The translations under genes and the position numbers were made by a program. Below, piece after piece: positions 7,040 to 18,343 of a stretch of 59,708 bases of DNA. The DNA is from Bacteroidota bacterium (GTDB taxonomy: Bacteria > Bacteroidota > Ignavibacteria > UBA10030 > BY39), in NCBI GenBank assembly GCA_030017895.1, contig JASEGV010000008.1:1-59708 (forward strand), given 5' to 3'. The notes below the pieces were generated by a model, which was not told the DNA's origin, did no database searches, and saw only the letters and a list, made by a program, of their open reading frames with translations. Positions within the stretch are counted from its first letter, which is position 1. Each line of letters begins with the position of its first letter.

Positions 7040-8404
7040 CTATGCGATTTCTGAAATTCCTGCTAAACTGCGTGTAAGTTCTTCACTCGAAAAATGATTA
7101 GAAGTCAACTCGTTATTTAAGTAGGCATCGTACGCGCCTAAATCCAAAAAACCGTGTCCTGAAAGATTAAACAATATCGTTTTTCTTTCACCGGATTGTT
7201 TACATTTCTCGGCTTGCACCAATACTTCTTTAACAGCATGGGCGCTTTCTGGAGCTGGAATTATTCCTTCTGCCTTTGCAAATATTTGTGCCGCCGCAAA
7301 CACGTCTATCTGATTATGTGCAACTGCTGTCATATATCCATCCTTATAAAGCTTTGATACAAGTGGCGCCATTCCGTGATAACGCAAACCGCCGGCGTGT
7401 ATTTTTTGAGGAATAAATTTATGTCCCAGTGTGCACATTTTGATTAACGGTGTCAAACCCGCTGTATCACCAAAATCGTATGTATACTTTCCGCGAGTTA
7501 ATGAAGGACACGATTCCGGCTCCACAGCTATCACTTCCAAATTCGGTTGGCTGCCGTTTAATTTATCTCGCAAGAATGAAAAGCTGATTCCGGCAAAATT
7601 ACTTCCACCGCCGACACAACCGACGACAACGTCCGGATAATCTCCAGCCGCTTGAAACTGCAACTGCGCTTCTTCACCTATTATCGTTTGATGTAGTAAA
7701 ACGTGGTTTAACACACTGCCTAAGCCGTAATTCGTATCGTCTCTTTGAGCCGCTATTTCCACCGCTTCACTAATTGCTATACCGAGCGAGCCGGGGGAAT
7801 CTGGATTCTCTTCTAAAATTTTTCTTCCCGATGCAGTAAGCTCAGAAGGACTCGGAAAAACTTTGGCACCAAAAAGCTGCATAAAGCTTTTTCTGTACGG
7901 TTTCTGGAAGTAGCTTACTTTTACCATAAACACGTCGCACTCAAGCCCAAAATGACTGCATGCGAACGACAGAGCACTTCCCCACTGACCGGCGCCGGTT
8001 TCAGTAACAAGTTTTTTGATTCCCGCTTTTTTATTGTAGTACGCCTGCGGAATTGAAGTATTAGTTTTATGACTTCCAGCCGGGTTCACTCCTTCATATT
8101 TATAATAGATTTTGGCGGGTGTATCTAAAATTTTTTCTAAAGCCGACGCTCTAACCAACGGTGTAGGTCGGCTTAGTTTGTAGACATCCAGTACCTCGTC
8201 GGGAATTTCGATAAACTTTTCAGAGCTGATTTCCTGCTTTATGAGCTCATCAGGGAAAATTGCCTGAAGGTCGGAAGGTTTAATCGGCTGCAAGGTGCCC
8301 GGATGCAGAGGCGGCTGTAACGGGGTTTTAAGATCTGCTGCTATGTTGTAGTAATAGCGCGGTAATAGATTTTGACTAAGATTGAAGATTTTTTGTGTGT
8401 TCAT
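7040..8404 (-). CDS. Tryptophan synthase beta-like protein, TrpB2 type
   Basis: The 454-residue protein belongs to the PLP-dependent TrpB2 (TrpB-like) group. The PLP lysine lies in GSHKTNTS, the substrate motif in ETGAGQWGSA, and the phosphate-binding glycine loop in VGCVGGGSNF. TrpB2 enzymes make L-tryptophan from serine and indole but usually lack the TrpA-binding features of TrpB1. The start at 8404 (MNTQKIF) is preceded by GAGGT at good spacing; the longer frame to 8509 reads through a leader hairpin. It stands alone with no trpA nearby. A leader of about 200 bases separates it from its promoter. Confidence 0.93.
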   Translation of the reverse strand: MNTQKIFNLSQNLLPRYYYNIAADLKTPLQPPLHPGTLQPIKPSDLQAIFPDELIKQEISSEKFIEIPDEVLDVYKLSRPTPLVRASALEKILDTPAKIYYKYEGVNPAGSHKTNTSIPQAYYNKKAGIKKLVTETGAGQWGSALSFACSHFGLECDVFMVKVSYFQKPYRKSFMQLFGAKVFPSPSELTASGRKILEENPDSPGSLGIAISEAVEIAAQRDDTNYGLGSVLNHVLLHQTIIGEEAQLQFQAAGDYPDVVVGCVGGGSNFAGISFSFLRDKLNGSQPNLEVIAVEPESCPSLTRGKYTYDFGDTAGLTPLIKMCTLGHKFIPQKIHAGGLRYHGMAPLVSKLYKDGYMTAVAHNQIDVFAAAQIFAKAEGIIPAPESAHAVKEVLVQAEKCKQSGERKTILFNLSGHGFLDLGAYDAYLNNELTSNHFSSEELTRSLAGISEIA

Positions 8405-8612
8405 GATAACCTCATATGTTTTGGTGTGTAAATAAATGAGCCGCGACGGAAGCTGTTCACGGTAAACGAGGTTATAAAAACACGAAAGCCATGAACGGCA
8501 TGCCACCATCCACGGCTTGGTTAATTAAAAAATTAAATGCTTCAGGAGGGCGGACAAAACACTGTCCACCACCAAGAAGATAGATTTAATATTTATAAAT
8601 TTGATTTCACGT
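8405..8612 (-). promoter_or_regulatory. Structured leader of the trpB2 gene
   Basis: The transcript from the promoter at 8617-8645 would carry about 200 untranslated bases. Two strong hairpins are visible: GGTGGACA pairing with TGTCCGCC (about 8550-8573), and a 9-bp stem AGCCGTGGA/TTCATGGCT (8487-8517, two G-U pairs) followed shortly by a U-rich run. The first has a TGGTGGTGG run just before it. This could be an attenuator or just a stable leader; it matches no riboswitch I know. Confidence 0.35.
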
Positions 8613-8616
8613 TTAG

Positions 8617-8645
8617 AAAATAGAAAAATTATTGATGAATGTCAA
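8617..8645 (-). promoter_or_regulatory. Promoter of trpB2
   Basis: Minus-strand TTGACA (8640-8645), 17-base spacer, TATTTT (8617-8622). It lies back to back with the hicB promoter, with only 4 bases between the two -35 boxes. Confidence 0.55.
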
Positions 8646-8649
8646 ATAT

Positions 8650-8678
8650 TTGATATTATTTTAAGATTTAACTATAAT
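8650..8678 (+). promoter_or_regulatory. Promoter of hicBA
   Basis: TTGATA (8650-8655), 17-base spacer, TATAAT (8673-8678), 62 bases upstream of hicB. HicB antitoxins usually repress their own promoter, so an operator is expected here; no clear palindrome stands out. Confidence 0.55.
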
Positions 8679-8739
8679 AAGGAGAGTTAGAATATAAAAC
8701 GAGTTTTACTGTTGAAAACGATAATCTTGGATACAACCT

Positions 8740-8979
8740 ATGAAAAATATTAAAATCGTCATCGAACGTCATGAGGACGGATACATCGGGTATCCGATCG
8801 GCTTTACTCGCGGCGCAATTGTAGGACAAGGGGATACATATGCAGAAGCCCTTAAGGATACCGAAGGTGCTATCCGATTTTTTGTTAAACATTATGGAAA
8901 GAAAAAGTTTTTTGAACATTTAGAAACCGATGCCCCAACACTCGAAGCGTACATAGCAGAGACAAGCGTAGCATTATGA
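8740..8979 (+). CDS. hicB: HicB-family antitoxin
   Basis: A 79-residue protein with the partial RNase-H-like fold of HicB antitoxins: strand IKIVIERHEDGYIGYPIG, then GQGDTYAEALKDTEGAIRFFVKHYG, where the family has G.G.T..EA..... It neutralises HicA. It lacks an obvious C-terminal DNA-binding domain, placing it among the short HicB proteins. The antitoxin comes first and its stop overlaps the toxin start (ATGA). Confidence 0.85.
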   Translation: MKNIKIVIERHEDGYIGYPIGFTRGAIVGQGDTYAEALKDTEGAIRFFVKHYGKKKFFEHLETDAPTLEAYIAETSVAL

Positions 8980-9209
8980 AATTTCCCGTTGATGCTTCAC
9001 AGCGAGATGTTCTTAAAGCTTTTGGCAAGTTAGGCTTCTTTATTGTACGGAAAGAAAACCATATAATATTAGAGCGGAAAAATAAAGATGGATCAGTTAC
9101 TCCGTTAGTTTTACCGAATCATCGGACGATTAAAAGCAGTACACTAAGAACAGTCCTGACTCAATCAGGAATCGAGCGTAACGAATTCATCAAAGCTTTT
9201 TATGATTAA
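8976..9209 (+). CDS. hicA: HicA-family mRNA interferase toxin
   Basis: A 77-residue double-stranded-RNA-binding-like toxin. The order RDVLKAFGKLGFFIVRKENHIILERK matches HicA: a helix, then a G-F strand, then the catalytic histidine (in ENHII, where GSHH is more usual). The end LPNHRTIKSSTLRTVLTQSGI is also typical. HicA cleaves mRNA when free of HicB. Translational coupling to hicB by a 4-base overlap supports a working type II toxin-antitoxin pair. Confidence 0.87.
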   Translation: MKFPVDASQRDVLKAFGKLGFFIVRKENHIILERKNKDGSVTPLVLPNHRTIKSSTLRTVLTQSGIERNEFIKAFYD

Positions 9210-9689: not shown

Positions 9690-12600
9690 ATGCCATTACA
9701 ATCTGATGTCCATTCACAATTGAGCGCATTCAAAACTCATGATGACGCTGCAAAATTGTTTAGCTTACTCAACTATGAGTACACTGCACAGACGGTATCA
9801 CTAAAACGATTTCCTTCTTCTCTCGACGGAAGAATAAACACACTTCAAATACTTGCAGGGCACGAGGATTTCAAAATCTTCCATTGTGAAGTTGACCAGC
9901 TTATTCTCGGAGTCGAGCGTCCCATTATCGACAACCTGTTGAAAGACCATCCTTATTCGCTTTTTCTCTTTTCCGACGCTAACAAAAATGCGTGGCATTT
10001 CATAAATGTAAAGTATGATGAAGAAGAAACGAGAAGAAAACTCTTCCGCCGCATAGTAATTGGGCCTGATGAACGATTGCATACAGCAGCACAGCGAATT
10101 GCCATGCTTGATGTACATAATGATAAGCTCTCATCGTTGGATCTCCAGCAAAAACATGATACGGCATTCGATGTCGAGGTTGTTACAAAAGAATTCTTTA
10201 ATTCCTTTGTTCAGATGTTTCACCTCTTGAGGGAAGAAATTGAAGAACTGAATCCAAGATACAAAGCAAAGTCGGCTGAATTTTCGCAGTTGCTTCTTAA
10301 CAGGTTGATGTTTCTATATTTTATACAGAAAAAGGGCTGGTTGGACGGTAACACAAGCTATCTCTACCAGCGATATAGAAAAGGTTATAAGGCTCAGCAA
10401 GAAAAGCATACATACTATTCCGAAGTTCTTCTACTCATTTTCAAGAAATTGGCAAATACCGATCTCGAGTTTAAACAGCTTGGCAGTATCCCGTTCCTAA
10501 ACGGTGGACTATTCGAGTCTGAGCCGTGGGAAGATGTACTAAAAATTAGTAACGGTTTATTCGGCAAACTTTTCAAAGACTTATTCGAGCATTATAATTT
10601 CACAGTGCGTGAAGATACAGCGATGGATATGGAGGTTGCCATTGATCCTGAGATGCTTGGGAAAGTTTTTGAAAACTTGATTCTCCAATTAGAAAAAGAC
10701 CCAACGACTGACTTACGTAAGGCAACAGGAAGCTATTACACCCCGCGTGTCATCGTCCACTTCATGTGCCAACAGTCATTGAAAGAATATCTCATTGAGA
10801 ATCTAACACCTTACGTCACCCTGAACTTGGTTCAGGGTCTAAGCACCGATACCTCCGCTCAGATTCCGAATCAATCCTTCGCTGCCGCTCAGGAGAGCGT
10901 TCGGAATGACGGTAAAGGACTGGGTATGGACGCTGAAAAAAAGCAAATACGGGAAAAGATTGAAAAACTTTTCGCTCTCAATCCAGCTTCTCTATTAACT
11001 ACAGAAGAAATCTCTTGGCTAAAATCTTCTTTCACACATGACGAAGCAGAACGAATGAAAAACCTTATTTTCAATTGTCGTGTCTGCGACCCGGCAGTTG
11101 GCTCAGGTGCATTCGTTGTTGGTATGCTGCATGAGATGGTGGCAATTATTAAGCTACTCGATATGTTGCTTATGGGATTGGGGAAAATACAAGAGCGAAA
11201 TTACGATTATGAGTTAAAGCGCAAAATTATCGAGTACTGCCTGTACGGTGTGGATATTCAAGAACAAGCCGTACGGATTTGCGAGTTGCGTTTGTGGCTT
11301 TCTCTTGTTGTGGATTATCAAGGAATAGATATTCCTCCTCTGCCCAACCTCAGCTACCGGATACGACAAGGGAACAGTTTGATTGATAAACTGTTCGGCT
11401 ATCCTGTGAATATGAATATTTCTCAAACGACCGAACGAGGCGAAAAGCTCAAGCAACTCATTGACAGTATTCAGAATGATAAACACGCTTATTTCTATGA
11501 ATCGGATATACAAAAGAAGCGTAAAGCAGAGTTAGGAATACTTGCAAAGCAATGCGACTTAGCTTCAGTATATTTAAAACTTCGACAAGATATAGTCTCA
11601 TCAGAGCATGAAGCGAAGTATGGCAAAGGACTTTTCGGTTACAAAGAACTGAGAAAAGCTGAACAAGAAGACAAAGAAACATTGCAAAAAGAAATAAAAG
11701 AATTAGAAAAACTTATTCTTCTTGCTAAGAACACAAAAGACAAAGTCCTCGCTGTTGAAAAAGGAAAATTGACTGAAGCTGAAAAGACACGGCAATATAC
11801 CTTATGCCTTCATGTGCGACTCCTCAAGCATGAACATACGGAAATTTGTTTTGAGCAAGAAATGCATAATTTTTGTGGATGCATTCCCAGAAAGAGACGA
11901 TCCGAACAAGCGTTTGTTCGAAGCCGCTAAGATGTCAACATGCATAGTAATGATAAAAAATATCTACCGATTAAATAGCTTTCCAGTACGAACACACTAT
12001 TCACGAGTATTTGAGCAAAATATCCGGACGGTCCACCTGGATTGGGTGACCATTCAAGAAATTGACGCCGAGAATTGTTCCATACCTTTGATGACTGACA
12101 ATGGAATGCGAGTAGTACGCAAAGTCATCAATAATGCAAAGCTACGATTGAAGGATATCGGAAGATGTTATGAGGGCGAGATAAACCTGACATTCCACAA
12201 AAAATATATACGTCCTTCAAAAACTGGTAATGCGCTATTGATAAAAGGTGCCGCCATACAGAGATATAGAATTCTCGAAAAAATGAAACAAGGCGAAGTT
12301 GAATACCTTGAACAAAAGAGATACATAAGGGATAACGGGGGTCCTAAGTCCAAGCATTTTCGAGAGAAAAGAATTGTAATGCAGGGCATTACGGGAGTGA
12401 ATGAACATACTAGACTAAAGATGACCATTCTTGATAGCGAAGCATTCTTAGGGAATTCTGCAAACTATATTTTGCTGCGTAGTAAGGATTATTCATATGA
12501 GTTCATATTAGGTGTGCTAAACTCTAAGTTGATAAACTGGTATTTCAAGTTATTCAGCACAAACAGTAACGTTAACGGATATGAGATAGACAATATTCCG

Positions 12601-12798
12601 ATTCCTGAATGCGTTATTCAAGATGAGATTACAGAAATTGTTAGTACCATCTTGTCTTTGACTGAAAATCAAGATTACGAATCAGACCCCAAGAAACAAG
12701 CAAAAGTTAAGGAACTTGAATTGCAGATGGATCATAAGGTAAACCGAACGTATGGGTTATCGGATGAAGATTTCTTAATAGTGAAAGGACAAGGTTAA
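9690..12798 (+). pseudogene. Eco57I-type adenine N6 methyltransferase, inactivated
   Basis: The first frame (9690-11930) holds an N-terminal domain, ATGSYYTP (residue about 344), SAM motif I DPAVGSGAF (about 467) and a later GNSLID-type segment. A second frame (from about 11812 to 12798) continues with FVDAFPERDDP, AKMSTCIV and a target-recognition C-terminus. Between them the stretch that should carry the catalytic NPPY motif is absent, and the frames do not join. An internal deletion plus frameshift has therefore removed catalysis. A palindromic repeat is inserted in frame at 10814-10911. The start at 9690 has GGAG upstream. Originally it coupled to a PLD-SNF2 helicase, whose stub follows the stop with no gap. 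Confidence 0.82.
10814..10911. repeat. 98-bp palindromic repeat inside the methyltransferase frame
   Basis: The ends are CGTCA and TGACG. Inside is a perfect 9-bp stem (ACCCTGAAC at 10818, GTTCAGGGT at 10830) with a 3-base loop, and an outer pair TTCCGAA/TTCGGAA (10864 and 10900). The reading frame passes through it without a stop. It resembles palindromic elements that insert into protein genes in other bacteria. Confidence 0.65.
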
Positions 12799-12927
12799 GT
12801 GCCACAACACGACATCATAGACAACCGCAACGAAAAACTCGTTGAACATATACTCCGCATTTTACCACCGAGTGAGCGGGCGAAGTTTGCAGTGAGATAC
12901 TATGAGCAGATCCTCTTAATTAGGTAA
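12799..12927 (+). pseudogene. 5' stub of a PLD-SNF2 helicase gene
   Basis: A GTG directly after the methyltransferase stop opens a 42-residue frame. Its first 34 residues match the first 34 of the intact helicase at 15026 with about six changes, while the DNA differs at roughly 23 of 102 positions, mostly third codon bases. After that the homology ends and a stop follows. It is the remains of a second, diverged helicase gene that once followed this methyltransferase. Confidence 0.85.
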
Positions 12928-13005
12928 AAAATGAAGAAAATTCAGGCAAAACCGCTCATACATATAAAATATCACATATTTCACCTAATAAATAGTTTTA
13001 TGGAA

Positions 13006-13108
13006 TAGTGAAAATACCAATAGAGTGAAAATAGACTTGATTTTCATAGTTTTTCATTATATATTGGTTTTCATAAAAACATGATAACTCGTATATAGTG
13101 AAAAAATA
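13006..13108 (+). promoter_or_regulatory. Promoter and repeated operator of the AbiE cassette
   Basis: The promoter reads TTGATT (13037-13042), 17-base spacer, TATATT (13060-13065). The word GTGAAAA or its complement TTTTCA occurs six times: forward at about 13008, 13025 and 13098, reversed at about 13041, 13052 and 13068. The motif covers the promoter from both sides. AbiEi antitoxins are known to bind inverted repeats in their own promoter, so these are probably its operator sites. Confidence 0.6.
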
Positions 13109-13119
13109 TCTGAAATATT

Positions 13120-14169
13120 ATGAATGAACAGAAATATCAAGAGAAAATGAAGGAAATCTTGAAACGTGTTTCAGGATTAACAATCATTGGTACAAACGAT
13201 AAGCCCGAATACGGTAATAGGGTAGCCGACTTCGATGTGATTGGTAATGTTAATGGGAAACCTTTCTATCTTATTGTGGACATAAAGCAAAAAGGAACAC
13301 CGCTTAGTATCCGTATGGCGATAGAATCCTTACGTAAAATTATTCCGCAAAATAACACAGGGTCGCCTTATGGTGTAGTAGCAGCACCTTTTATCAGTGA
13401 TATGGGACGAGAGTTATGCCGGGAGGCCGGTGTGGGATGCTTCGATTTAGCGGGAAATTGTTTTCTAAATTTTGGAACTGTCTATTTGGAAATCAAGGGA
13501 AATGCAAATCCGTCTCCCTCCGAATTTAAGCTGTCGCTTTTTTCTCCCAAGTCGAGCAGAATCAGTCGGGTTCTCCTTTCGAATGTTACAAAACTTTGGC
13601 AGGTACAAGAATTAGCAAAGGAGGCGAACGTAAGTTTGGGACTTGCATTTAAAATAAAAGATCAACTTAAAGAGGAAGGATTTCTGATCGAAGAAAACCG
13701 TTTGCTAAAGTTGGTAGCGCCAGAGCGACTTTTAAATGCCTGGACCGAAAGATATTCGTATAAAAGAAATCGCATCTATGAATTTTATTCTAACTCAAAT
13801 GCTGCAACCATCGAATGGTCAGTACAGGAAAATTGTTCCAACAATAATATAAAGTGTGCCTTAGCATTATTTTCTGGTGCTGCACAAGTTGCTCCGCATG
13901 TACGTATGGAAAAAGCGTTCCTCTATGTTGAAAAAGATATAGATCGATTAGTCAAGACATGGGAATTAAAATCCGTTTCATCGGGAGCCAATATTATGTT
14001 ATTAGTGCCTTACGACAAAAGTGTGTTTTATAAAACACAAAAGATTGGAGAGAATTTAGTTGTATCGAACATACAACTTTATCTCGATCTAAAAAAGTAT
14101 AAAGGTCGGGGTGAGGAAGCAGCCGAATTTTTGAAACAAGTCAAACTGAACAAGGAATTGGGGATATGA
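13120..14169 (+). CDS. AbiEi-like antitoxin and transcriptional regulator
   Basis: A 349-residue protein with three parts: an N-terminal nuclease-like fold (FDVIGNVNGKPFYLIVDIKQKG, a D...DxK pattern), a winged helix (about 150-200, LSNVTKLWQVQELAKEANVS), and a C-terminal domain typical of AbiEi-type proteins. These antitoxins block the AbiEii nucleotidyltransferase and repress their own promoter (type IV toxin-antitoxin, phage abortive infection). The downstream toxin start overlaps its stop by 4 bases. Whether the nuclease-like fold is active is unclear. Confidence 0.78.
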   Translation: MNEQKYQEKMKEILKRVSGLTIIGTNDKPEYGNRVADFDVIGNVNGKPFYLIVDIKQKGTPLSIRMAIESLRKIIPQNNTGSPYGVVAAPFISDMGRELCREAGVGCFDLAGNCFLNFGTVYLEIKGNANPSPSEFKLSLFSPKSSRISRVLLSNVTKLWQVQELAKEANVSLGLAFKIKDQLKEEGFLIEENRLLKLVAPERLLNAWTERYSYKRNRIYEFYSNSNAATIEWSVQENCSNNNIKCALALFSGAAQVAPHVRMEKAFLYVEKDIDRLVKTWELKSVSSGANIMLLVPYDKSVFYKTQKIGENLVVSNIQLYLDLKKYKGRGEEAAEFLKQVKLNKELGI

Positions 14170-14993
14170 AGGGTTATCACTCAAGGGAAACTGAAGCTGC
14201 CCATCGTGTGCTTATCGAGCTAATGCAGATATTGGGAGAGTATCGAGAGAAAATGATACTCATCGGCGGCTGGGTGCCTTACATACACTTCGGCAATAAA
14301 CATATCGGTAGTCTGGATGTCGATATCGCACTCGATAAGGATACGATATCTGAGAATGTTTATAGCACGATTCGAAAGATACTCGATCATCATAATTACA
14401 AACCGGATGACAGTCAGCCATTCATTTTTTATCGAGAGGTAAAAATGGATGAAGGTGAACCGATAAAAGTTGAGATAGATTTTTTAACGGCAGAGTACGG
14501 TGGAACAGCTAAAAGTCATCGAACACAGACTATTCAGGATATTAAAGCAAGAAAAGCACGCGGGTCTGATTTAGCATTTGAACACCCAGTGCGTTTAACC
14601 GTAACCGGTAAAATGCCAAACGGTGCTGAAAACACAGTAGAATTACGAGTCAGCGGAATATTACCTTTTCTTGTGATGAAAGGAATGGCTCTCTATGATA
14701 GGCTAAAAGAGAAAGATGCATACGATATATATTTTTGCTTAACGAATTTTCAAGCCGGATTAATTAGCCTTGCGGACGAATTTCGTCCTCTTACCAATAA
14801 TAAACTTGTTATTGAAGGTCTTTCGAAAATCAGAAGTAAGTTTATTTCCATAGGATCGCTTGGTCCCATAGCGGTAGCAGATTTTCTCGGCATAGAAACC
14901 GGAGAAGAACGAACTCGGATAATCAGACGTTCATTTGAGATGGTTAATGAGTTTCTCGATGATCTAAAAATACAACCTTATTCAAAAGAATGA
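14166..14993 (+). CDS. AbiEii-like nucleotidyltransferase toxin
   Basis: The 275-residue protein has the nucleotidyltransferase signature GGWVPYIHFG (34-43) followed by SLDVDIALD, giving the paired aspartates D51 and D53, and a third acidic site in VEIDFL. The segment KGMALYDRLKEKDAYDIYF is the usual KD.YD motif of AbiEii/AbiGii proteins. Known relatives transfer nucleotides to tRNA and stop translation during phage infection. It forms an operon with the antitoxin by a 4-base overlap. Confidence 0.88.
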   Translation: MKGYHSRETEAAHRVLIELMQILGEYREKMILIGGWVPYIHFGNKHIGSLDVDIALDKDTISENVYSTIRKILDHHNYKPDDSQPFIFYREVKMDEGEPIKVEIDFLTAEYGGTAKSHRTQTIQDIKARKARGSDLAFEHPVRLTVTGKMPNGAENTVELRVSGILPFLVMKGMALYDRLKEKDAYDIYFCLTNFQAGLISLADEFRPLTNNKLVIEGLSKIRSKFISIGSLGPIAVADFLGIETGEERTRIIRRSFEMVNEFLDDLKIQPYSKE

Positions 14994-15025
14994 GAAATCG
15001 GTAAAATAAATATTGCAAAAAACCA

Positions 15026-18000
15026 ATGCCACAACACGACATTATAGATAACCGTAGCGAGAAACTCATTGAGCACATTCTCCGTATCCTGCCGTCCAGC
15101 GAGCGGGCAAAGTTTGCTGTGGGATATTTCTTTCTCTCCGGTTTTGAACCTCTGAGAAAACAACTTAACGAGGTTGGTGAAATTCGCTTACTCATTGGCA
15201 ACACAACAAACTATCAAACACTTGAGCAGCTCTCGGAAGGATACAAACGGCTTGAGCTTGTTGAAGAAGCTGAGAAACATGTTAAGTTCCTCAAACGCGC
15301 CGATGAGAAGAGAAATATGAATGTAACAGCAGAGAACATCAAAGACGCTGTATCACTTATGGACCAAACAGATGAGCAGGAAGAATTGGTTGCAACTGTT
15401 GCCTCGCTTATTAAACAAAAGAAACTTAAGGTCAAAGTCTTTACGCGGGGACGGCTTCATGCTAAGGCATATATCTTCGATTACAAGCAGGACGGTCGGT
15501 ATGAGAAAGGTATAGCAATAGTCGGCTCGTCAAATCTAACGCTCTCTGGTATTTCGCACAACACAGAATTAAACGTGGTCGTACATGGCAAAGATAATCA
15601 TACCGATTTATCGCGATGGTTTGATGACCTGTGGAATGAATCGAAAGATTTCGATGAAGCACTTATGAACGAACTCAAAGCATCGTGGGCTTTAGCTCCC
15701 GTTCGTCCGTATGATATTTACATGAAAACACTCTATGAATTGGTGCGAGACCGACTTGAAGAAGGTGAAGCCGCAGATATACTTTGGGATGATGAAATTA
15801 CTACAAAGCTTGCAGATTTCCAGCGAGTAGCGGTAAAACAGGCGGTTCAACTTATCAGAGAATATTCAGGTTGCTTTGTGTCCGACGTAGTTGGTCTTGG
15901 TAAGAGTTTTATTGGTGCAGCAATCGTAAAACATTTTGAGCGAACCGACCACATTCGCCCGCTCATCATTTGTCCGGCGACTCTTGTAGAAATGTGGGAA
16001 GGATACAATGAAACCTACCAACTTAATGCTCGTGTCTTGTCAATGGGAATGCTTAGAGAATCGGAGGAACAAGGTAGGAATATTCTCCTCGATGATGTAA
16101 AATATCGTGACAGAGATTTTATACTAATCGACGAAAGCCACAACTTCCGCCATCATACAACTCAAAAGTACGAAATTCTTCAAGCTTATCTCAGTGCTGG
16201 CAGGAAACGCTGTGTATTTCTCACTGCCACACCGCGAAACAAAGCTGTAACCGATGTTTACAATCAGATAAAGCTTTTCCATCCTGATGATAAAACCGAT
16301 CTTCCTATCGATCCTCAAGATTTAAAAAAGTATTTCGGTTTGATAGAAAAGGGTGAAAAACGGCTACAAGATTTACTGGTGCATATTCTCATCCGCCGCA
16401 CACGAAATCATATACTTAAATGGTACGGCTTCGATAGTCAAACTCACCAACCAATTGATCCTAATCGTTTTGAAGAATATCGCTCAGGTAAACGCCGCGC
16501 TTATGTAATGGTTGGCGGAAGACATCAATTCTTCCCGAAGCGTGAGCTTGAAACTATAGAATATAGCATCGAAAAAACTTACAACGGATTGTATCAACGT
16601 CTGCGAGGTTATCTTGGAAGACCAAAGAGCCAACGAAAAATTAATACTTCAAAGGAATTAATCTATGCTCGTTACTCTTTGTGGGATTATGTAGTGTCTG
16701 AAAAACAGAAGAAACAACCTTACATTGACCTACATCGCGCAGGTGCAAATCTTTTCGGATTAATGCGAACCCTGCTTTTCAAACGATTCGAATCGAGCGT
16801 TTATGCTTTCAGGGAAACGCTAAAACGAATGATTCGGATTCACGAAGCTTTTTTGAAATCATTGGACAAAGGTATTGTCCCTGCAGGCGATGAGGCACAG
16901 GCGATATTGTATGAGTCTGACAATTACGAAGAAGCCGATCTATACGATGCTCTGACGGCAGCCAGCGAGAAATATAAGATTGAGGATTTTAATAAAGATA
17001 AACTAATACGAGACGTTAAGCATGATCTGGGATTTCTACAGGAAATGCTCGATCACGTAAAAGATATAACACCGGAAAAAGATGCAAAACTACAGACGTT
17101 ATTAAAATGGTTACGCAAGGACGCTTTATCGAAAGGAAAGCTCATCATCTTTACACAATTCGCAGACACTGCACGTTATTTATTTGAGAACCTTAATCCA
17201 GGTTCGAAAGAAAAAGATATTGAAGTTATATACAGCGGCGATAAAAGTAAAGCGAAAGTTGTAGGTAGATTTGCACCCAAAGCAAATCCCGATTATAAAT
17301 TCTCAAAAGGTGAAATGGAAATCAGATTGCTCGTTGCGACTGATGTTCTATCAGAAGGGCTTAACCTTCAGGATTGCGATAAGATGATAAATTATGATTT
17401 ACACTGGAATCCAGTCCGGCTCATTCAAAGATTTGGCCGTATTGATCGTATCGGTTCTGAAAGCGAAGTCGTATGGGGTTACAACTTCCTGCCGGAGACC
17501 GAGCTTGAACGAACGCTCGGCTTGCATGCAACGCTACATAATCGTATTCAGGAAATCCATGACACTATCGGTGAAGATGCACAAATACTCGATAAGACGG
17601 AGCTATTAAATGAAGAAGCTATGTATGCTATTTACGAAAAGAAAACTGATCAACTCAATCTATTTGAGGAGGAAGGAGAAGTATCAATCGACTTGAATGA
17701 AGCTGAAGAAATTATGAGGCAACTTCGTAAAGAGAATTTTACTGAGTTTGAGCGTATTGAGCAACTAAGAGATGGTGTCCGTGCTTCCAAAACCTCCAAG
17801 GCGGATGGTACTTTTGTATTTTGTAAGTCGGGTTCCTATAAGCAGCTTTTCTTGACTGATTCAACTGGAAATATTATCTCTCGAGATATTCCCAAAATTC
17901 TTGGTCTTCTTAAATCTGGTGATCGTGAACCGGGTAAACCGCTTTCGAAGAACCACAACAAGACAGTAATGCGAGTCAAGAAAGCCTTTGATGAAGAAGT

Positions 18001-18343
18001 GAAACAACGCGCTACTGAACGTGAACAGTTATCTTCACTCACTCATGCTCAGAGATATGTAATCAGAGAATTACGGGTAATGTTCCAACTATCCGATGAT
18101 GAAGAAACGAAAGCTCAGATAAATATTCTCGACAAAGCCTTCAGGAAATCACAAACAGTTGCTGTACAGAGGGAATTAAATCTTCTACGTAGAAATGGAA
18201 TAATTGGAAAACCATTACTAAAATCTCTCACAAGAATATATCACCAGCATAAGGTTCAACAAAGGATTGAATTGATTGAGCAAAGTTCTAATCCAAGCGA
18301 AGATATACCGAGGATTGTTTGCAGTGAGGGATTGTGTAGTTGA
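15026..18343 (+). CDS. PLD-nuclease/SNF2-helicase fusion, predicted defence protein
   Basis: This 1105-residue protein starts with a phospholipase-D-type domain (HxKx4D motif HAKAYIFD near 145, then VGSSNLTLSG) and continues as an SNF2-family ATPase: VVGLGKS (about 291), DESH (about 368), LTATP, ATDVLSEGLNLQDC and QRFGRIDRIGS (about 800). A charged C-terminal region follows. Such proteins sit beside adenine methyltransferases in restriction-like loci. Here the partner methyltransferase is dead and an AbiE pair lies directly upstream (32-base gap). It lacks the DUF1998 domain of DISARM helicases. I cannot place it in a named system. Confidence 0.85.
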   Translation: MPQHDIIDNRSEKLIEHILRILPSSERAKFAVGYFFLSGFEPLRKQLNEVGEIRLLIGNTTNYQTLEQLSEGYKRLELVEEAEKHVKFLKRADEKRNMNVTAENIKDAVSLMDQTDEQEELVATVASLIKQKKLKVKVFTRGRLHAKAYIFDYKQDGRYEKGIAIVGSSNLTLSGISHNTELNVVVHGKDNHTDLSRWFDDLWNESKDFDEALMNELKASWALAPVRPYDIYMKTLYELVRDRLEEGEAADILWDDEITTKLADFQRVAVKQAVQLIREYSGCFVSDVVGLGKSFIGAAIVKHFERTDHIRPLIICPATLVEMWEGYNETYQLNARVLSMGMLRESEEQGRNILLDDVKYRDRDFILIDESHNFRHHTTQKYEILQAYLSAGRKRCVFLTATPRNKAVTDVYNQIKLFHPDDKTDLPIDPQDLKKYFGLIEKGEKRLQDLLVHILIRRTRNHILKWYGFDSQTHQPIDPNRFEEYRSGKRRAYVMVGGRHQFFPKRELETIEYSIEKTYNGLYQRLRGYLGRPKSQRKINTSKELIYARYSLWDYVVSEKQKKQPYIDLHRAGANLFGLMRTLLFKRFESSVYAFRETLKRMIRIHEAFLKSLDKGIVPAGDEAQAILYESDNYEEADLYDALTAASEKYKIEDFNKDKLIRDVKHDLGFLQEMLDHVKDITPEKDAKLQTLLKWLRKDALSKGKLIIFTQFADTARYLFENLNPGSKEKDIEVIYSGDKSKAKVVGRFAPKANPDYKFSKGEMEIRLLVATDVLSEGLNLQDCDKMINYDLHWNPVRLIQRFGRIDRIGSESEVVWGYNFLPETELERTLGLHATLHNRIQEIHDTIGEDAQILDKTELLNEEAMYAIYEKKTDQLNLFEEEGEVSIDLNEAEEIMRQLRKENFTEFERIEQLRDGVRASKTSKADGTFVFCKSGSYKQLFLTDSTGNIISRDIPKILGLLKSGDREPGKPLSKNHNKTVMRVKKAFDEEVKQRATEREQLSSLTHAQRYVIRELRVMFQLSDDEETKAQINILDKAFRKSQTVAVQRELNLLRRNGIIGKPLLKSLTRIYHQHKVQQRIELIEQSSNPSEDIPRIVCSEGLCS

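Follow-up and report, generated by a model that had tools for sequence, protein, structure and literature searches.

Among the closest described counterparts of the locus reported here are the Hma-like Type-2 BREX-related (BR) systems (BREX, bacteriophage exclusion), in which an HKD nuclease fused to a Swi2/Snf2 helicase is paired with an N6 methyltransferase; a DUF499 ATPase is required in this group, DUF3780 is nearly always present, and auxiliary nucleases, including PIN proteins, can be embedded in or beside the core locus (PMC12839542). A different kind of precedent is offered by the tvr locus of Streptococcus pneumoniae, where the toxin-antitoxin (TA) pair tvrAT stands between the methylase gene hsdM and the restriction gene hsdR and acts mainly as a regulator, controlling transcription and rearrangement in the locus (PMC6265443). 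How cells restrain restriction nucleases, and how they respond when phages disable them, are open questions for many helicase-nuclease systems without a known control gene. We have analyzed such a locus in a 59,708-bp stretch of DNA (the window), which is the entire contig JASEGV010000008.1 of a 3.2-Mb draft genome of a Bacteroidota bacterium (176 contigs, completeness 100%, contamination 0.7%). Between a HicBA pair and polA, one strand carries a broken methyltransferase gene (M), a helicase stub, abortive-infection genes for AbiEi and AbiEii, and a complete gene for a helicase with a phospholipase D (PLD)-type nuclease domain and an SNF2 motor (HEL). These four parts had been named in a sequence-only reading of the window, and all of them were found where that reading had placed them.

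Our preferred reading is that the locus derives from a two-gene, ATP-dependent system of restriction-modification-like type, M-HEL, which was remodelled and into which an AbiE module has been interposed; we give this reading about an even chance of being correct, a judgement that includes the role of the module as an expression gate. HEL retains the HKD motif of the nuclease (HxKx4D) and the full set of SNF2 motor motifs (GLGKS, DESH, TATP and QRFGRIDR, the latter corresponding to QRxGRxDR), and its best PADLOC match, covering most of its length, is C3a139 "HKD+Snf2" (E=1.6e-86). Membership in the Type-2 BR/Hma-like group was ruled out, as there was no match to DUF499 (PF04465) in the entire genome; the stretch from M to HEL in the window contains no unassigned gene, and no search aimed at DUF3780 was made. 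Similarly, HEL matches the DrmD models and M the DrmMI models of class 1 DISARM (defence island system associated with restriction-modification), but that system was also ruled out, since DrmD scored 161 bits against a curated cut-off of 610 and drmA, drmB and drmC were not found beside the locus. HEL also differs from the phospholipase D anti-phage protein of NCBIfam NF042964, reaching 168 bits where the cut-off is 1100. In the tvr locus, as in the window, methylase and restriction genes are separated by a TA pair, which provides a precedent for a regulatory role of such a pair, but it is a Type I system with shuffling hsdS genes, its TA pair belongs to another family, and it acts on the recombinase gene instead of the restriction gene (PMC6265443).

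The partner of HEL was examined in a sample of 94 HEL-type genes from related genomes, plasmids, and KSB1 and Anaerolineales contigs. An M-type gene was present in the fetched stretch for 81 of them, directly adjacent in 46 cases and separated by at least one open reading frame (ORF) in the other 35; some of the 13 HELs lacking M were truncated by contig ends. The gene order was mostly HEL followed by M; minus-strand loci in which M overlaps HEL also have M downstream. In the two-gene M+HEL system HEL forms the restriction half, with a methyltransferase as its normal partner. Genes found between HEL and M encoded DUF1016/YhcG (seven loci and the paralogue in the window's own genome) as well as Bro-N, ORF6N, KilA-N, DUF3800, NYN, VapBC and PDDEXK_3 proteins; embedded auxiliary nucleases have already been described for BREX and BREX-related systems (PMC12839542). 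On a Microcystis plasmid (L177, 4493-9273), a SMODS nucleotidyltransferase and SLATT pair, resembling a cyclic-oligonucleotide-based anti-phage signalling system, stands between M and HEL.

The new element is the recurrent layout M-module-HEL in the clade to which the HEL of the window belongs. In the tree, HEL groups with the KSB1 (L004) and Anaerolineales (L005) sequences (support 100), then with L035 (98), and then with L073 and L074 from archaeal plasmids (90, with long branches). A scan with the clade alignment added L186 (55%), L187 (63%) and L188 (61%) from a viral collection, in which single-sequence scans had found nothing; a second clade alignment scan gave no further members. Scanning genome contigs for HEL recovered just two relatives. 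In all six clade members where both M and HEL are visible, M lies upstream of HEL and the gap between them is filled. The window carries AbiEi-AbiEii in this gap; a Thermococcus profundus plasmid has a 601-residue protein, an AbiEi_4-like protein of a different, weakly matching family, and an AbiEii overlapping HEL; L186 has a PIN protein with a 68-residue partner; L035 has a PIN match (E=0.003, below the cut-off) and a 259-residue protein; L187 has a sigma-70 protein overlapping HEL (7737-9023); and the Halorussus plasmid L073 has a gene for an archaeal TATA-binding protein (TBP; 7284-7826), divergent from HEL by 150 nt. Upstream of the KSB1 HEL, whose M is off the contig, a ribbon-helix-helix (RHH)-PemK (MazEF) pair is divergent by 60 nt. 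Where the module is divergent, the product of the gene nearest to HEL is TBP, an antitoxin or a putative partner of one, and 60-150 nt separate this gene from the start of HEL. By comparison, 61 other HEL loci gave 115 upstream neighbours, and these included no more than one each of PIN, PemK and AbiEii, as all families with at least two members were listed and none of them was PIN, PemK or AbiEii; with the background TA rate bounded in this way, family by family, a Fisher test for 5/7 versus at most 3/61 gave p ~1e-4, a post hoc figure from few cases.

The sigma-70 protein of L187 contains regions 2 and 4, and over its first 125 residues it shows homology to the M encoded next to it, namely to the N-terminal domain of that M (35%, E=5e-15). 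In Planktothrix (L175, 4429-5988) a sigma-70 gene likewise stands directly before HEL. A sigma-70 gene beside HEL suggests a dedicated sigma factor for the nuclease, and the TBP of Halorussus would be the archaeal counterpart of this case.

From this layout we propose that the modules in the M-HEL gap gate HEL expression. M would methylate and recognize DNA, and HEL would act as a PLD nuclease driven by its SNF2 motor. No terminator-like site was found between AbiEii and HEL; HEL may be transcribed from the AbiE promoter and hence be held down by AbiEi, whereas in the divergent relatives the antitoxin or regulator would act on the intergenic region shared with HEL. In either arrangement little HEL would be made until something, such as a phage, disturbs the antitoxin or regulator. 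A stronger version, in which the gap is a dedicated regulatory socket of one PLD-SNF2 clade of bacteria and archaea, where interchangeable self-repressing TA pairs (AbiE, MazEF, VapBC) or transcription-initiation factors (sigma-70 with a copy of the M N-terminal domain, archaeal TBP) gate the nuclease and loss of the antitoxin or regulator during infection turns restriction on, seems unlikely to us. If unrelated TA pairs and transcription factors do repeatedly occupy the same gap, they would mark where control of the nuclease acts, which is testable in plasmid-borne relatives. For the window alone the reading is more modest, namely a locus that has recombined and is probably dead for restriction, but in which the AbiE pair looks alive.

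Several points weigh against a gating role. TA modules land widely and bring their own promoters, and position alone is no proof of control; most HELs have no TA pair or regulator alongside, and the ancestor of the stub had an empty M-HEL junction. Also, the upstream side is visible in only seven clade members, the archaeal members sit on long branches, and the PIN match of L035 is weak. The modules might instead be neutral cargo, the M-HEL gap being a permissive site for mobile TA modules within a defence island, with the AbiE insertion and the loss of M as steps of decay and AbiE and HEL functionally unlinked. The independence of the AbiE module, the very different cargo between HEL and M across loci, the dead M, and the AbiEii of a related genome that is itself interrupted by another TA pair (see below) all fit this explanation, which we regard as quite possible. 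However, HEL, AbiEi and AbiEii are intact, not a single gap is empty among the clade members with both genes visible, and two of the fillings are transcription-initiation factors rather than addiction modules.

M belongs to the Eco57I/TaqI-type adenine methyltransferases (Eco57I/N6_Mtase and TaqI_C Pfam matches, 9690-12798) and is split into two ORFs in different frames (9636/9690-11930 and 11812-12798). Its N-terminal part matched REase_MTase_IIG of PADLOC (E=2e-55) and is 36% identical to the M of L186, while its C-terminal part matched TIGR02987 (E=8e-39), under the curated cut-off of that model. Motif I (DPAVGSGAF) is retained in the window M. Motif NPPY was not found in it; this motif is present in all of the eight related M proteins inspected, as well as in one Alw26I-type protein of G001, a genome of the same genus, and in the M sequences of L186 and L187. 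When compared to the homologue in L049, the N-terminal part aligns up to residue 730 and continues into a spacer, NPPY lies at residue 892, and the C-terminal part aligns from residue 961; the window M passes from the spacer preceding NPPY to about 70 residues beyond it, in a different frame. The loss of NPPY and the change of frame are both explained by a single deletion of an estimated 80-100 codons, its length not divisible by three, which leaves HEL without an intact adjacent N6 methyltransferase. The fragments are otherwise open across approximately 1,030 codons with no additional stops, and for this reason the loss of M looks recent. Within M, an in-frame stretch at 10806-10925 (PYVTLNLVQGL...ESVRNDG) shows poor alignment with homologues and has the look of a translated repeat, but the genome was found to hold no other copy of it.

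Restriction by the system of the window has probably been lost: the specificity domain (TaqI_C) belongs to M, and without M, HEL would not be expected to find its targets. The AbiE genes may still function as a TA pair. Contig C11 of the same genome encodes another HEL-M system (L053, 2090-10612; 27% identity), whose M is open over 1,234 codons and is separated from HEL by DUF1016/YhcG and ORF6N genes; this system could in principle complement that of the window.

The helicase stub starts with a GTG directly after the stop codon of M, indicating that the ancestral order was M-HEL with nothing in between. The sequence-only reading had given a stub matching over 34 codons; the stub is real, but the matching part amounts to 33 codons, which at the DNA level are 79-80% identical to the beginning of the complete HEL gene. 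A search of the whole genome with HEL recovers the stub at E=3.4e-12, so that the match is not due to chance. Among the sequences found, stub and HEL are mutually closest (identity 0.79, versus 0.64-0.71 for others). Of 102 bases compared, 22 differ, 16 of them at third, 5 at first and 1 at second codon positions, and the differing codons are 15 synonymous and 5 non-synonymous (one of the latter being the start codon; dN 0.06, dS not computable). As had been read before, the divergence is thus mostly silent, and both copies evolved as working genes before they came together. Target-site duplication by AbiE transposition was ruled out, as 16 of the 33 third positions are changed in the supposed duplicate.

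Recombination between two related loci, as the earlier reading had it, is a good account of a stub and a gene that were both under protein-level constraint beforehand, and a chimeric origin of the locus is likely. In the simplest account, the old HEL was replaced by a segment from a related locus: an ancestral M-HEL operon would have gained a segment with an independent AbiE module and a diverged HEL allele, whose arrival left a 33-codon stub of the old HEL and placed the new one 32 nt behind AbiEii, and in a separate event a single deletion would have killed M. This route is what we infer for the locus. An old tandem duplication (M-HEL1-HEL2), in which HEL1 decayed to the stub and AbiE landed between the copies, would account for stub and HEL being each other's closest relatives, but we hold it to be distinctly unlikely, as the many changed third positions would require HEL1 to have remained functional for long beside HEL2 and none of the fetched loci showed a tandem HEL of this kind. 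Even less probable is an assembly artefact, either a false join of the loci of two strains near 12,900-13,020 or an assembly error within M near 11,790. Although the genome is a draft in many contigs, its completeness and contamination values weigh against such an error, as do the immediate departure of the stub from HEL past codon 34, where the junction has no word in common, and the similar gap fillings seen in independent records.

AbiE is an independent module. AbiEi matches AbiEi_2 above the cut-off and stands in one operon with AbiEii, whose model match (E=2e-4) is just under the cut-off and which retains the GG, DxD and other conserved motifs. In G001, a protein 74% identical to AbiEi is encoded on a different contig (C40), of which the 18 kb read contain neither HEL nor M; DNA homology with the window (75%) covers 13020-14228, from about 100 nt upstream of the AbiEi start into AbiEii. 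The AbiEii of G001 is interrupted after 21 codons by an MNT-HepT pair (L132, 7899-9707), a TA pair within a TA pair. Stand-alone AbiEi/AbiEii pairs of the family occur in G036, G104 and G064 (the AbiEii of the window being about 56% identical to those of G036 and G104), AbiEi relatives are present on 46 plasmids, and AbiEi/AbiEii pairs were found on contigs of the viral collection. Only 2 of the 24 AbiEi_2 genes in 150 related genomes adjoin HEL.

The earlier reading had also suggested that AbiEi, AbiEii and helicase could form a working defence unit; as a three-gene unit it would not need M. The three genes are intact, close together and on the same strand, and AbiEii overlaps HEL in T. profundus; nevertheless, a dedicated trio is improbable, as AbiE stands alone elsewhere and seldom adjoins HEL, M is the normal partner of HEL and is present in T. 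profundus and L049, the AbiEi of T. profundus is of another family, and HEL has no recognized specificity domain. AbiE does recur before HEL homologues, overlapping HEL in T. profundus and lying about 1.4 kb upstream in G073/L049, but as one of several module types. With AbiE near other HELs and the gap filled throughout the complete clade members, the arrangement is not the one-off scar that had been considered as the alternative.

In the 100 nt preceding AbiEi, a palindrome TTTCA(C/T)TATAT...ATATAGTGAAA is conserved across six AbiE loci, giving inverted repeats at the AbiE promoter. A promoter-like site at 13037-13065 overlaps it, although such sites are no more frequent than in shuffled sequences. 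The palindrome fits the autorepression of abiE described in the literature, in which AbiEi binds to inverted repeats (PMC3985639, PMC7319586). With its bicistronic pair, AbiEi_2 domain, nucleotidyltransferase motifs and palindrome at the promoter, the module resembles AbiE type IV TA systems, but differs from them in the HEL gene close downstream and in some 140 additional residues at the N terminus of AbiEi, ahead of its winged-helix and AbiEi_2 parts. This region (13120-13540) has a D-x-D ... (D/E)-x-K pattern that most homologues share and that recalls PD-(D/E)XK nucleases. No relative of AbiEi was found when solved structures were searched by sequence, and a single-sequence AlphaFold model of AbiEi (mean predicted local distance difference test, pLDDT, 38) was too poor and was not used.

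Coordinates of the features of the M-AbiE-HEL locus in the window.
Feature	Position	Strand	Evidence or remark
M, N-terminal part	9690..11793	+	Eco57I/N6_Mtase Pfam; motif I DPAVGSGAF; ORF continues out of frame to 11930
Deletion junction in M	11785..11800	.	about 80-100 codons including motif IV NPPY gone, frame shifted
M, C-terminal part with TaqI_C specificity domain, other frame	11812..12798	+	TaqI_C E=1.5e-10
Helicase stub, first 33 codons of older HEL allele	12799..12897	+	direct repeat, codon comparison, genome search
Putative AbiE promoter/operator	13020..13119	+	palindrome TTTTCATTATAT...GTATATAGTGAAAA overlapping promoter-like site
AbiEi antitoxin/regulator, 349 residues	13120..14169	+	AbiEi_2 E=7.6e-15; 74% identical to G001 AbiEi
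AbiEii nucleotidyltransferase toxin, 275 residues	14166..14993	+	AbiEii E=2e-4; 4-nt overlap with AbiEi
HEL, PLD-nuclease and SNF2 helicase, 1105 residues	15026..18343	+	PLDc_2, SNF2-rel_dom, Helicase_C; start 32 nt past AbiEii stop

The ORFs in and around the locus are trpB-like, HicBA, M, AbiE, HEL and polA. The HicBA-like pair, a small upstream gene followed by a HicA toxin gene (8740-9209), lies immediately upstream of M.

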